A stretch of 37,652 nt of DNA from Thermoplasmatales archaeon. Lineage in GTDB: Archaea; Thermoplasmatota; Penumbrarchaeia; Penumbrarchaeales; Penumbrarchaeaceae. The position numbers and the translations under genes are program-made. The DNA is taken from assembly GCA_030595715.1 (NCBI GenBank), contig JAUVCN010000015.1:1-37652 (forward strand), read 5' to 3'. Every line of letters starts with the position of its first letter. Position 1 is the stretch's first letter. The notes under the pieces are model-generated. The model was not told where the DNA came from, did not search any database, and worked only from the letters and a program-made list of their open reading frames with translations. Positions 84 through 4,048 of the stretch are shown piece by piece.

Positions 84-232
84 GCAAATTAGAAATCTTG
101 TAACTCACTCTCGTCCATTGGATTATGATCACGTGAGTTCAAGACACAGCAGCACCAGGCCGTCAATTCTACAATACTGGTGTGCGCGCTTTGGTTTTTA
201 ATATTAAAATATTCTGATCAAGAAAACCAAAG
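84..232 (+). repeat. Repeat unit 2 (diverged copy), three-hairpin element
   Basis: This is a diverged but alignable copy of the same unit. Stem S1 is aactcac (102-108) with gtgagtt (133-139). Stem S2 is caccag (153-158) with ctggtg (177-182), again with an 18-nt loop sharing cgtcaattc. Stem S3 is ctttggtttt (189-198) with aaaaccaaag (223-232). Each stem differs in sequence from the other copies, yet pairing is retained by matched changes on both arms. Boundaries are set from the shared 'gcaaa' start and the end of S3. Conservation of structure over sequence is seen directly. That it is an RNA is inferred. Confidence 0.85.
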
Positions 233-253
233 TCAGGAAAAACAAAGAACTAT

Positions 254-394
254 GCAAACTCGTAACTTCCTCTCGTTAATTAAACACTGAATCGGAAGTT
301 CGAGATGCAGCAGCAATGGAGCGTCAATTCAACATTACCATTGTGCGCACTTTGTTTTTCTATACTAATTTTATATTAATCAGGAAAAACAAAG
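254..394 (+). repeat. Repeat unit 3 (complete copy), three-hairpin element
   Basis: This is the complete unit. S1 is aacttcc (264-270) with ggaagtt (294-300). S2 is caatgg (314-319) with ccattg (338-343). S3 is ctttgtttttc (350-360) with gaaaaacaaag (384-394), an 11-bp perfect stem with an AT-rich loop. Single-stranded segments shared by all copies are cagcagca before S2, cgtcaattc in the S2 loop and tgcgc between S2 and S3. The right arm of S3, read on the minus strand, also supplies the T-rich tract after the terminator at 400-419. Confidence 0.85.
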
Positions 395-419
395 AAAAAC
401 AGGGGCCCGGAGGCCCCTG
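384..419 (-). terminator. Intrinsic-type terminator of the surface-protein gene at 437-3145
   Basis: A perfect 8-bp GC-rich inverted repeat, caggggcc (400-407) and ggcccctg (412-419) with loop cgga, lies 18 nt past the stop codon at 437. On the minus strand it is followed by a T-rich run (384-399, TTTTTC-TTTG-TTTTTC). Hairpin plus U-rich tail is the classic termination signal. Part of the tail coincides with the S3 arm of repeat unit 3. Confidence 0.75.
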
Positions 420-436
420 CAGGGATCGGATCGATC

Positions 437-3145
437 CTATTCCATATCTCTTATTGGGAGATCATCTTCATCGAGTTCATCAACCTCGTATTCCTCGGTG
501 ATGTCCTCTTCTTCTTCTTCTCCGTAGAGGTCATCCTCATCTTCCGGTGATAGTTCATCATCTTCGAACTTGGCACCGCAGTCCGGACATTCGAGTGAAT
601 CTCCCGGAACCATTGAACCGCACTCCGGACACTCGAAGAGGTCCTCTTCGAACTCAGCACCGCAGTTCGGACAATCCGGTTCATCGGATTCCACCACATA
701 TCCGCAGACAGGACACATGAACTCACCCTCTGGAAGATCATCAAAATGGTCGCGTTCCATGTGCTGAGGCCTCTCATGTGCGAATCCAGGCCTTGAGCGT
801 CCCCTCCCGGTTTCCTCCTCTTCTTCAGGTTCCTTCTGCTTTCTTCCGAGGAAGACATACGCCAGGATCACGATGATCAACAGAACGACTATTATCATGG
901 CGATGAATCCGGGATTCCATATCGAGTCTTCATCCTCTTTCTCAACGGTCAATGAGGTAAGATCCACCTCATGGCCAGCCGCAATGGTGAAAACAGTGGT
1001 AAGTGTCTTGTGATCCGGGATCTCGATGGTAAGGGTCCATTCACCCTCTGCCAGTTCCGCTTCTTCGAACTTTCCATCAAGGCCCACTAAAAGCGACATT
1101 GGAGCACCGGTTCCCAGCTGGATCGTTGCTTTTATCAGATTCGGTGAGAATGGTTCTCCATCCTCATCGAGTATGAAACCAACGACGGACCCGGTTGTAA
1201 CGAGGGCCATGGTCGAGAATGACCAGGTATTACCTCCGAATATCTTGTAAGGGTCCAATGGCTCAATATCTTCATCCAGGGAAACCGAATACATCCCACC
1301 ATATTCCAGATCATCAAGCGGAATGAACTCAGCAGTGTAGTTCTCGGAATAATATACAACCGTTCCAGCGATCGGGGAACCTCCCCCTCCACTCAAGAAC
1401 ACCTGGAATGTGGACTCCGAGATGGTAGAGACATCCATGGGTTCAGGGAATACCGCACTGATCCTGACATCGACAGGAACCTCACTCTGATCATAAGCAG
1501 GATATCTCGACTCGATGTCGATCTCCTGTATCTCGACCATGGTGGTGAAGTTCGAATAGGCGATGAGAGGGAAGTAATGCCCGTTGATATCCTCCACAAG
1601 CTCTGTGACGGTTATCCTGTATTTTCTCAGGTGTACCAGACCTGATTGTGGTGAGAGAAGAACTGTATTCTCGTCCTCTATGAACGCAAAGGATAATGGA
1701 ACGTTCTGGGATGTTGACAGATCGATGATATAGATCGTTGATTCGTTGGTGGTCGAGGTGTTTATCGGCCTCGAGAACTGCAAGGAGATGGTTTCGTCCA
1801 CGGGGAATCCAGGCTCATTGTCCGGAGGAGAGAACGTAACAGTGAACGGTATCTCTCCTATCTGCATATCCAGTTCATTCCATATCTGTTCGATCAAGGT
1901 GAAGTTGGTATCGGCTGCATCAAGATATCCTTCCAGAGAGCCTATCACCTCAATAGTGCCAGCCTTGACGGATGCGAAGCTGTAGTTCCCGAATGAATCG
2001 GTGTAATCTATGAGGGGGGCTTCACCCGGGATCTGCACGGTTATTTCCACACCTTCTGCCGGGGTGCCATCTGGTAGTTTTACCTGGCCCCTGAGACCTC
2101 CGATCGCCTGCTTGTTCACAGTGGCGTTGACCACGGAGGTGACCCCTTCTTCGACATTCACTGAGGTGGTATTACTGGTGGACCACATCTTGATGAATTC
2201 AAGGGCATAGGTCTCGGCGACGACATCCTCGAAGAAATAATATCCATCAGCGTCGGTGAAGACCTGCCCGATAAGGAAGGTCGACCTGAGGTTGACAGTG
2301 ACATTCTGAACCGGGGTTCCCAATGTCGTCTGGACCCATCCTTCGATCGATGGAAGTTGATCGATCGAGAAGAAAACTGTCTTCATGTTGTTGGATGTGT
2401 TGTATGTATCGTAATCCACGGAAAACTTGGCCCTGTAATTACCGGGTGTTTCCGGGGTCCATCCTTCATCGAATATGACGGAGAAGATGTGTCCCGGATC
2501 CTGAGTTGCCTGTCCCTTGACCATTATTGTCATGTTCCGGCCATAGACCACGACCAGAGGTGTCTCGAGTAATTCGATCGTCAGGTTGATGACAACATCA
2601 TCATTCCAGCTATCCACATTTCCTTCATAGGTTACCTGGCAGGTGGGTATCAGCTCTTCACCGGGTGGATACTCTCCATCTGGAATGAAAAAATCGCTAT
2701 CCATGGAAAGATCGACCACGTCCATGATCACAACATCCTCTCTCATGAAGGTCTTCTCCACTCCATCTATCGTCCCGTTAACGACAATGTAGTATTCACC
2801 CTCCGGCATATCAACCGTATCGATGACCAGTTCAACTTCGCTATTGGCATCGATCGGAGGAAAGAACTCTTTTGATGTGTTGTAGAATTCCGAAGTGTTC
2901 GAGTGGAATATCTTGAGATAGAGGGTGGTTGTATTCAGAAAGTTTTCATTTCCGCTATTATTCAGAACAGCCGATATCTCGTGAGTCCCTGAAGAGAATT
3001 CTCCTCCTGGACCTGTCTCTCCTTTTATCGAGATACCAACGATCTCAACCATGGTATCCCTTGTTGGATCAGCAGCGCCCAGGATCGGGATCGATCCAAG
3101 GAGTAGCATTATGGCAACAATTGCAAGCCCTGTCTTCTTTAACAT
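437..3145 (-). CDS. Secreted, C-terminally anchored Ig/carboxypeptidase-regulatory repeat protein with two cytoplasmic zinc ribbons
   Basis: About 902 residues. The start is set at 3145, where a GGGAGGG Shine-Dalgarno precedes ATG and a signal peptide follows (MLKKTGLAIVAIML..., cleavage near GAA). The ectodomain shows CARDB-like segments, then carboxypeptidase-regulatory-like domains (VTVNLRSTFLIGQVFTDADG and VEITVQIPG...DSFGNYSF), two SbsA/Big_5-type Ig domains (FSRPINTSTTNESTIYI; FPEPMDVSTISESTFQVFL) and another regulatory-like domain. A single TM segment (FIAMIIVVLLIIVILAYVFL) is followed by a basic stop-transfer, an acidic tail and two zinc ribbons (CPVC...CPNC and CPEC...CPDC). By topology the ribbons are cytoplasmic. 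It is paralogous to the gene at 8630-10495, which lacks the ribbons. It ends in TAG. No enzymatic motif is seen; a cell-surface or adhesion/sensing role is inference. Confidence 0.88.
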   Translation of the reverse strand: MLKKTGLAIVAIMLLLGSIPILGAADPTRDTMVEIVGISIKGETGPGGEFSSGTHEISAVLNNSGNENFLNTTTLYLKIFHSNTSEFYNTSKEFFPPIDANSEVELVIDTVDMPEGEYYIVVNGTIDGVEKTFMREDVVIMDVVDLSMDSDFFIPDGEYPPGEELIPTCQVTYEGNVDSWNDDVVINLTIELLETPLVVVYGRNMTIMVKGQATQDPGHIFSVIFDEGWTPETPGNYRAKFSVDYDTYNTSNNMKTVFFSIDQLPSIEGWVQTTLGTPVQNVTVNLRSTFLIGQVFTDADGYYFFEDVVAETYALEFIKMWSTSNTTSVNVEEGVTSVVNATVNKQAIGGLRGQVKLPDGTPAEGVEITVQIPGEAPLIDYTDSFGNYSFASVKAGTIEVIGSLEGYLDAADTNFTLIEQIWNELDMQIGEIPFTVTFSPPDNEPGFPVDETISLQFSRPINTSTTNESTIYIIDLSTSQNVPLSFAFIEDENTVLLSPQSGLVHLRKYRITVTELVEDINGHYFPLIAYSNFTTMVEIQEIDIESRYPAYDQSEVPVDVRISAVFPEPMDVSTISESTFQVFLSGGGGSPIAGTVVYYSENYTAEFIPLDDLEYGGMYSVSLDEDIEPLDPYKIFGGNTWSFSTMALVTTGSVVGFILDEDGEPFSPNLIKATIQLGTGAPMSLLVGLDGKFEEAELAEGEWTLTIEIPDHKTLTTVFTIAAGHEVDLTSLTVEKEDEDSIWNPGFIAMIIVVLLIIVILAYVFLGRKQKEPEEEEETGRGRSRPGFAHERPQHMERDHFDDLPEGEFMCPVCGYVVESDEPDCPNCGAEFEEDLFECPECGSMVPGDSLECPDCGAKFEDDELSPEDEDDLYGEEEEEDITEEYEVDELDEDDLPIRDME

Positions 3146-3254
3146 CTCTTTACCCTCCCACTTCCACATTTTCGCATGCTCATGGGCCCAGCGGGCCCTT
3201 TCCCCGTTATGCTGACATGCGTTTGTGTGTACTGTAGTGGAAAAGGATATCCCA

Positions 3255-3262
3255 TTATATAT
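3255..3262 (-). promoter_or_regulatory. TATA box for the surface-protein gene at 3145
   Basis: On the minus strand the sequence ATATATAATGG lies about 110 bp upstream of the ATG, which would put transcription start near 3230 and give a leader of ~85 nt. That leader contains a perfect 6-bp hairpin (gggccc 3184-3189 and 3193-3198). Position and sequence fit an archaeal box A; not tested. Confidence 0.45.
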
Positions 3263-3351
3263 TATGTTCCAAAAAGCCCATGTTCGGGGACATCCCATAC
3301 CTATCACTTCCATGATGGGAGATCGGCCCATGTGAGACCGGGATGGGCATA

Positions 3352-3359
3352 CTTTTAAG
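3352..3359 (+). promoter_or_regulatory. TATA box of the hyp operon
   Basis: The sequence cttttaag lies ~43 nt before the hypB ATG at 3395. A start ~25 nt downstream would leave a short leader (~15 nt) containing the AAGGTGA ribosome-binding site. It is divergent from the promoter of the minus-strand surface-protein gene. Confidence 0.5.
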
Positions 3360-3394
3360 AGGGTGAGATATCTGAAGAGTGCAAGGTGAAAACA

Positions 3395-4048
3395 ATGCAT
3401 CAGCTGCTTTCGATCGATATGGAGAAGGACCTTCTTGAAGCGAACAGGAAACTTGCAGAGGAGAACCATCAACTTCTTCTGAGAAAAGGCATCCGTTCAG
3501 TGGACCTGATGGGGTCCATTGGATCGGGAAAGACCCTTCTGATCGAGAAATTGGTAATATTGCTCTCAAAGAGAGGTATCAAAGCCGGTGTTATAACCGG
3601 TGATGTGGTAGGCGATGACGATTACAAAAGGGTATCAGCCCTTGGAGTTCCCACGATCAATGTGAACACCGGAAAGGAATGCCATATCGATGCTCATCTC
3701 GCGGAACATGCCTTGGAGGATATGGAACTCGATGGGATCGACATCCTCCTGGTCGAAAATGTCGGAAACCTTGTATGCCCGGCAGATTTCCCACTGGGAA
3801 CAGATATCAGGGTCGTCGTTATCTCGGTCACCGAAGGGGATGACATGGTCCGTAAGCATCCTCTTATCTTCAGGGAAGCGGATGTCATCGTGATCAATAA
3901 ATCCGACCTGGCAACGATCATGGAAGTGAATATCGAGGGATTGATATCGGATGCCCGGACGGTCAAACCCGGAGCTCCCACTGTCGTGACCGATGCAAAA
4001 CATGATGTCGGCATCGAAGAACTTGCGAAAGCCCTTGGGATCATTTGA
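3395..4048 (+). CDS. hypB: HypB, GTPase/nickel metallochaperone for [NiFe]-hydrogenase maturation
   Basis: 217 residues. HypB delivers nickel to the hydrogenase large subunit with HypA, using GTP hydrolysis. Visible are the P-loop GSIGSGKT, the HypB signature TGKECHIDAH (Cys-His metal/dimer site), ENVGNLVCP (switch/G3 region) and the NKSD guanine-specificity motif. A His-rich nickel-storage N-terminus is absent, as in many archaeal HypB proteins. ATG 3395 is chosen because AAGGTGA sits 5 nt upstream; a GTG at 3386 in frame has no good Shine-Dalgarno. It is the first gene of the hypBFCAD run, 14 nt before hypF. Confidence 0.95.
   Translation: MHQLLSIDMEKDLLEANRKLAEENHQLLLRKGIRSVDLMGSIGSGKTLLIEKLVILLSKRGIKAGVITGDVVGDDDYKRVSALGVPTINVNTGKECHIDAHLAEHALEDMELDGIDILLVENVGNLVCPADFPLGTDIRVVVISVTEGDDMVRKHPLIFREADVIVINKSDLATIMEVNIEGLISDARTVKPGAPTVVTDAKHDVGIEELAKALGII

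Follow-up and report, generated by a model that had tools for sequence, protein, structure and literature searches.

Nested Three-Hairpin Repeats in a Thermoplasmatales Archaeon and Their Probable Origin from an IS110-Family Insertion Sequence

Three-Hairpin Units at the Start of the Contig

The window analyzed here is a stretch of 37,652 nt from a Thermoplasmatales archaeon of the family Penumbrarchaeaceae (assembly GCA_030595715.1, contig JAUVCN010000015.1). It begins with a cluster of hairpin repeats, which are probably non-autonomous mobile elements derived from an IS110-family insertion sequence. A unit of three hairpins (S1, S2, and S3), with almost no linkers between them, is present twice at positions 84–394, as units 2 and 3 (Table 1). 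A third copy, unit 1, is represented by its 3′ part at positions 1–83, and positions 1–91 are 97% identical to positions 288–378. Unit 2 sits within the S3 loop of unit 1, whose two S3 arms pair across it in the fold of positions 1–400. The right junction of unit 2 joins CCAAAG to TCAGGAAAAAC.

The initial annotation of this DNA described three stems in each of units 2 and 3. All of them are found where it placed them, and two are longer than described. S1 consists of a 4-bp foot, one bulged T, and a 7-bp stem. The foot, which lies beyond the bulged T, is CTTG/CAAG in unit 2 and CTCG/CGAG in unit 3, and adds a further compensated pair. In S2, a 3-bp covarying foot is followed by a bulged A and then by an upper stem. 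The S3 stem is 10–11 bp long. The hairpin loops are 18–24 nt in length with CGTC inside, and the word CGTCAATT is common to the S1 and S2 loops, with variation.

Table 1. Features at the start of the window.
Feature	Positions	Strand	Remarks
Unit 1, truncated by the contig start	1–83	+	S1 right arm 7–17; S2 19–32/51–62; S3 left arm 63–73 and loop; S3 right arm 237–247
Unit 2, complete S1-S2-S3, inserted into unit 1 at the S3 loop	84–232	+	5′ end uncertain (84–92); match to covariance model R1 at 92–233, 145.5 bits
Unit 2 S1	97–143	+	Arms 97–108 (CTTG-T-AACTCAC) / 133–143 (GTGAGTTCAAG); single bulged T
Unit 2 S2	145–188	+	Arms 145–158/177–188; loop carries CGTCAATT
Unit 2 S3	189–232	+	Arms 189–199 (CTTTGGTTTTT) / 222–232 (GAAAACCAAAG)
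Unit 1 S3 right part, separated by the insertion of unit 2	233–247	+	TCAGGAAAAACAAAG; exactly the same as 380–394; pairs with the left arm of unit 1 in the fold
Unit 3, complete S1-S2-S3	254–395	+	S1 259–270/294–304; S2 306–319/338–349; S3 350–360/384–394; R1 match 152.6 bits
A-rich stretch and G+C-rich inverted repeat (401–407/412–418)	396–418	-	Terminator-like for the convergent gene; read from the sequence
Convergent neighbor gene, outside the element	437–3472	-	Ig-like, carboxypeptidase-regulatory, and zinc-ribbon domains

Base Pairing and Strand

Pairing in the unit is kept far beyond chance, as the initial annotation had proposed. As single strands, units 3 and 2 fold better than their shuffled versions (z -5.3 and z -4.1, respectively). 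When 31 units from the genome of the window are aligned by sequence alone, standard pairs account for 93.4% of the pair cells, compared with 74% after shuffling and 25–47% with slid partners. Changes on both sides are seen in 21 of the 28 pairs, and shuffling lowers the covariation score from 0.42 to 0.14. A model-fitted alignment that includes the upper S2 stem shows double changes in 27 of 34 pairs; in either alignment the copies share descent, and the pair cells are not independent events.

Strong covariation is a point in favor of a multi-copy gene for a structured non-coding RNA, transcribed from the plus strand, in which pairing would be kept for the function of the RNA. G-T pairs had been taken as a weak sign of such a transcript. 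Over 36 distinct copies, however, 18 cells are G-T and 26 are A-C, and no strand preference is seen. In the longer relatives described below as founders, the numbers are 9 and 6. The strand argument fails because G-T cells, just 1.5% of all cells, are no commoner than A-C cells. Rfam has no match to the repeat at gathering scores, and none up to E = 1 for the founders and the start of the window, in agreement with the first impression that it belongs to no known RNA family.

Copies and Arrays in the Genome

The genome of the window (G000) is a fragmented metagenome-assembled genome (MAG). Its relatives are designated here as G001, G002, G003, G007, and so on, contigs by C numbers, and loci by L numbers. 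The repeated stretch is placed by BLAST at 32 sites in its own genome. R1, a covariance model of the unit, has 62 matches there, two of which, on contigs C148 and C122, were missed by BLAST. The copies are intergenic. Their 3′ neighbor is convergent in 38 of the 55 placeable cases, an approximate count based on a simple open reading frame (ORF) caller, and, as in the window, the 3′ end of an array typically adjoins a terminator-like site of the convergent gene. The orientation relative to the upstream gene is not fixed.

The window starts inside an array, and many other array contigs terminate inside one; therefore, the repeat breaks the assembly. Array-internal contig ends are seen at window position 1 and in C61, C95, C99, C112, C114, C116, C117, C138, C158, C168, and C189. 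The right end of C158 is 98% identical to window positions 339–460 and represents an alternative upstream context for the window.

Some neighborhoods have features of their own. In C21 (L100:975–1400), an apparent 16S rRNA 3′ end is directly followed by an array in the opposite orientation. In C148 (L142:5200–5700), a copy adjoins a duplicated stretch including a tRNA-like 3′ end, which resembles an attachment-site duplication. In the window itself, the convergent gene contains three 42-nt direct repeats (558–685) that coincide with the predicted zinc ribbons.

Mobility and Insertion Sites

The repeat is a family of mobile elements and not an RNA gene at a fixed place. The same host copy is empty in C95 and filled in C176, where 152 extra nt lie between GACGCA and TCAACAATGG and the flanks match on both sides. 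An intact S3 loop, ACATTAATCAAGAAAA, is present in C168; in C175 the loop is interrupted. At least three hosts, themselves different in sequence, carry one element, X, at one position of the S1 loop; over the stretches read, the copies of X do not differ. G007:C113 has an element next to a rubredoxin-domain gene; in G003 and G002, this element is missing behind the ortholog of that gene.

The insertion sites are the S1 loop, the S2 foot, and the S3 loop. Insertion occurs beside a TC dinucleotide, mostly without a clear target-site duplication. At the right junctions of nested copies the boundary nearly always falls between T and C; left junctions show TC at S1 sites and some S3 sites, not at S2 sites. 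The subtype of the S3 foot corresponds to the target position: CCAAAG to the S3 loop (9), CAAGA or CAGA to the S1 loop (7), and CAAGG or similar to the S2 foot (8), where many of the cases counted are related by descent and not independent.

At two loci, C79 (L098:5222–5402) and G007:C113 (L159:1450–1640), S1-S2 is flanked by the S3 hairpin as direct repeats of 36–40 bp. S3 as a target duplication of this length fits these two loci alone and fails for the nested copies. At G007:C113, the left copy of the repeat contains the stop codon of the upstream gene.

It is extremely improbable that the arrays have grown solely by tandem and segmental duplication without insertion. A 168-nt array stretch in C33 (L087:5036–5345) is duplicated in tandem, near-exactly, and therefore arrays also grow by duplication. 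However, duplication explains neither the empty and filled pair with its intact host nor the occurrence of one element at one position in hosts of differing sequence.

The clusters recall repetitive extragenic palindromic (REP) sequences, bacterial interspersed mosaic elements (BIMEs), CGTC-tagged palindromes (PMC3733652), and REPINs (PMC3116915), which are likewise hairpin repeats between genes, often close to the ends of convergent genes. Movement of REP/BIME-like palindromes by a Y1 (HUH) transposase, of the REP-associated tyrosine transposase (RAYT) or IS200/IS605 kind, would agree with the intergenic clustering, with the lack of an evident target duplication, and with the CGTC motif in the loops; the CGTC-tagged elements, too, are without a known transposase (PMC3733652). 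Yet PF01797 has no match in G000 or any of the eight family genomes, with positive controls. Besides, REP-like repeats are single hairpins of 20–40 bp with a tag at the foot and loops of 4–5 nt, whereas the unit here is ~140 nt with three hairpins and carries CGTC within loops of 18–24 nt. This explanation is very improbable.

Relatives and Founders

The covariance-model search of related genomes proposed in the initial annotation finds matches in all eight family genomes searched. R1 has matches in 7 of the 7 other family genomes and in none of 4 genomes from other families of the class. A second model built from founders, R2, has matches in 8 of 8 family genomes and in 0 of 285 other Thermoplasmatota genomes. 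A few copies are detected per relative, compared with 62 in G000; the R2 survey used stricter filters and scored at most 8 candidates per genome, so that its copy numbers are lower bounds. The family genomes include the Candidatus Thermoplasmatota and Thermoplasmata MAGs M17C-73-04, SW_4_56, and Zod_Metabat.266.

The founders are ~205–260 nt long. Upstream of S1, S2, and S3 they have an extra 5′ domain, in which AAAACCC/GGGTTTT closes a GAGCC/GGCTC hairpin. The 5′ domain and the three hairpins are conserved across four genera. Double changes are seen in 11 of the 46 pairs among 7 sequences. The S1 arms, AAGTCCC/GGGACTT, are invariant in founders of the four genera and freely variable in the genome of the window. 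The left boundary could be either an A-tract or, closer to the inverted repeat, a stretch with AACATAG. In the window, both the left end and the original right-arm sequence are missing from the shortened copies, which are tied to the founders via the common S1-S2-S3 model. Three founders in G002 (L215, L217, and L218) share an additional pair of short hairpins, ~60 nt, between S1 and S2.

The paired changes might have arisen without selection if one arm was copied from the other by template switching, that is, by quasipalindrome correction. Double changes (256 cells) far exceed wobble intermediates (~18), many of them are transversions such as UA to AU, and arms can be shared between the S3 copies that flank an element. 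On the other hand, the bulges of S1 and S2, which correction should erase, stay at fixed places, and the founder S1 arms are invariant. Such correction is compatible with an origin from an insertion sequence, and its contribution is possible but rather doubtful.

Ends Shared with an IS110 Transposon

In G002, an IS110-family transposase gene (L247:730–1968; PF01548, 2.6e-29; PF02371, 5.5e-22; NF033542, 4.7e-89) lies beside a weak match to the element. A founder within G002 matches the left end of this transposon at 94% identity across 48 nt (E 5e-14). The identity of this end to G003 is 83% (71 nt), and to C127 of the genome of the window 87% (47 nt). R2 matches this left end with 39.7 bits (E 6e-9). 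The right end, CCTATCTTCATACCAA, is identical over 16 nt to the 3′ end of founder L213/L162. The ends of the transposon contain the subterminal inverted repeats CATGAAGATgGGCGTGTGG and CCACACGCCtATCTTCATAcc, and its long noncoding region is upstream of the transposase gene. A noncoding region upstream of the gene is the arrangement of the IS110 group, and subterminal repeats are a trait of IS1111 (PMC11187229).

No DEDD recombinase gene (PF01548 and PF02371) is found within the dispersed elements; the one associated with them is in the G002 transposon that shares their ends. Because the 5′ domain and the 3′ terminus of the founders match the left and right ends of an IS110 transposon, the founders appear, by sequence comparison, to descend from the IS110 family as non-autonomous derivatives.

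Other candidates were considered and rejected. Reverse transcriptase is absent from G000 and is found in the family only in G001 and G003, which does not suit it as the driver. In G003:C57 (L245), a group II intron-like reverse transcriptase ORF (21–1373) lies directly upstream of another IS110-type transposase gene (1486–2691). The R′ box of integron attC sites is GTTRRRY; the right arm of S1 reads GTTCGAG or CTTCGAA instead. The unpaired CGTC at the foot, the 8–9 bp stem, and the 4–5 nt loop of a CGTC-tagged REP are not seen here. The viral contigs and plasmids searched contain no match.

Discussion

The repeat cluster can probably be regarded as a set of non-autonomous mobile elements that originated from an IS110-family insertion sequence and spread by self-nesting. 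The founders retain the left end (AAAACCCTCATGAGCC..GGCTCACAACATAGYATGAAGAT) and the right end (CTATCTTCATACCAAA) of the transposon, and a compact hairpin core, consisting of S1, S2, and the left arm of S3, stands where the transposase gene would be. Shortened copies, S1-S2-S3 without the left end, have spread in the genome of the window by insertion into other copies. Repeated insertion has generated nested intergenic arrays, most of which abut a convergent gene at its 3′ end. The movement might be catalyzed by an IS110-type recombinase in trans and steered by a guide RNA, as in the studied members of the family. The pairing of the hairpins could be kept because the folded form is recognized, or because the arms correct each other.

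The initial annotation considered either a structured RNA or a DNA element folding as a single strand. The latter fits better, because the copies are mobile, nested, and missing at an orthologous locus and because the founder ends are those of an IS110 transposon. A guide RNA encoded by the founders keeps some room for the former. As for an RNA gene proper, the conservation of the 5′ domain and three hairpins over four genera speaks for it in addition to the covariation. Nevertheless, copies at differing loci, their mutual nesting, the ends matching a transposon, the scarcity of G-T pairs, and the variable orientation to the upstream gene make it improbable.

Several facts weigh against an origin from IS110. 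No sequence match is found between the S1-S2 core and the noncoding region of the G002 transposon. An autonomous transposon with exactly these ends is present in 1 of 8 family genomes, and the IS110 gene of G000 itself is of another type, its left side being lost at a contig end. The shortened copies have lost the left end, which would complicate their recognition by a recombinase. About 2 of 25 copies are exceptions to the link between the S3 foot and the target site. The 36–40 bp flanking repeats at C79 and G007:C113 are predicted neither by duplication-free insertion nor by the rule of nested insertion.

It can be speculated that the hairpin core is the element's own bridge RNA, reprogrammed to target the element family, so that derivatives without transposase home into each other and S3-foot subfamilies use different target positions (the S1 loop, S2 foot, or S3 loop). 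We regard this as unlikely.

Known IS110 elements are excised in circular form, and a bridge RNA picks the short core at which they insert, often in palindromic repeats (PMC11208160). Compared with IS110/IS1111 elements with bridge RNA or seekRNA (PMC11208160, PMC11187229), the family described here has in common the left and right ends of the G002 transposon, subterminal inverted repeats, and what may be insertion at a short core, in most cases without duplication of the target. Palindromic targets are also chosen by known members, for example REP elements and attC sites. In contrast to them, the elements here carry covarying hairpins where the transposase gene would be, their targets are other copies of their own family, and the subterminal repeat is ~38 nt from the apparent left end rather than 7 bp.

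Prokaryotic miniature inverted-repeat transposable elements (MITEs) are likewise short, non-coding, multi-copy, intergenic derivatives of transposons that retain the ends (PMC10969869), although here there are no classical terminal inverted repeats or short target duplications. The text of that review does not mention IS110. Mitochondrial repetitive and double hairpin elements are also mobile and multi-hairpin, with complementary substitutions between motif types (PMC2800124); they are organellar, their parent transposon is not known, and they were compared by their published description, not by sequence. Searches within a collection of open-access literature gave no description of this repeat family or of IS110-derived palindromic MITEs.

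These observations indicate that a repeat with strong covariation need not be an RNA gene. IS110 recombinases are RNA-guided and are of wide interest as tools for genome writing. A natural non-autonomous lineage with IS110 ends and covarying hairpins instead of the gene, inserting at a few fixed sites in its own relatives, would record how target choice changes in the IS110 family. Its many insertion events, aligned with one another, would allow guides and targets to be read in an archaeon.
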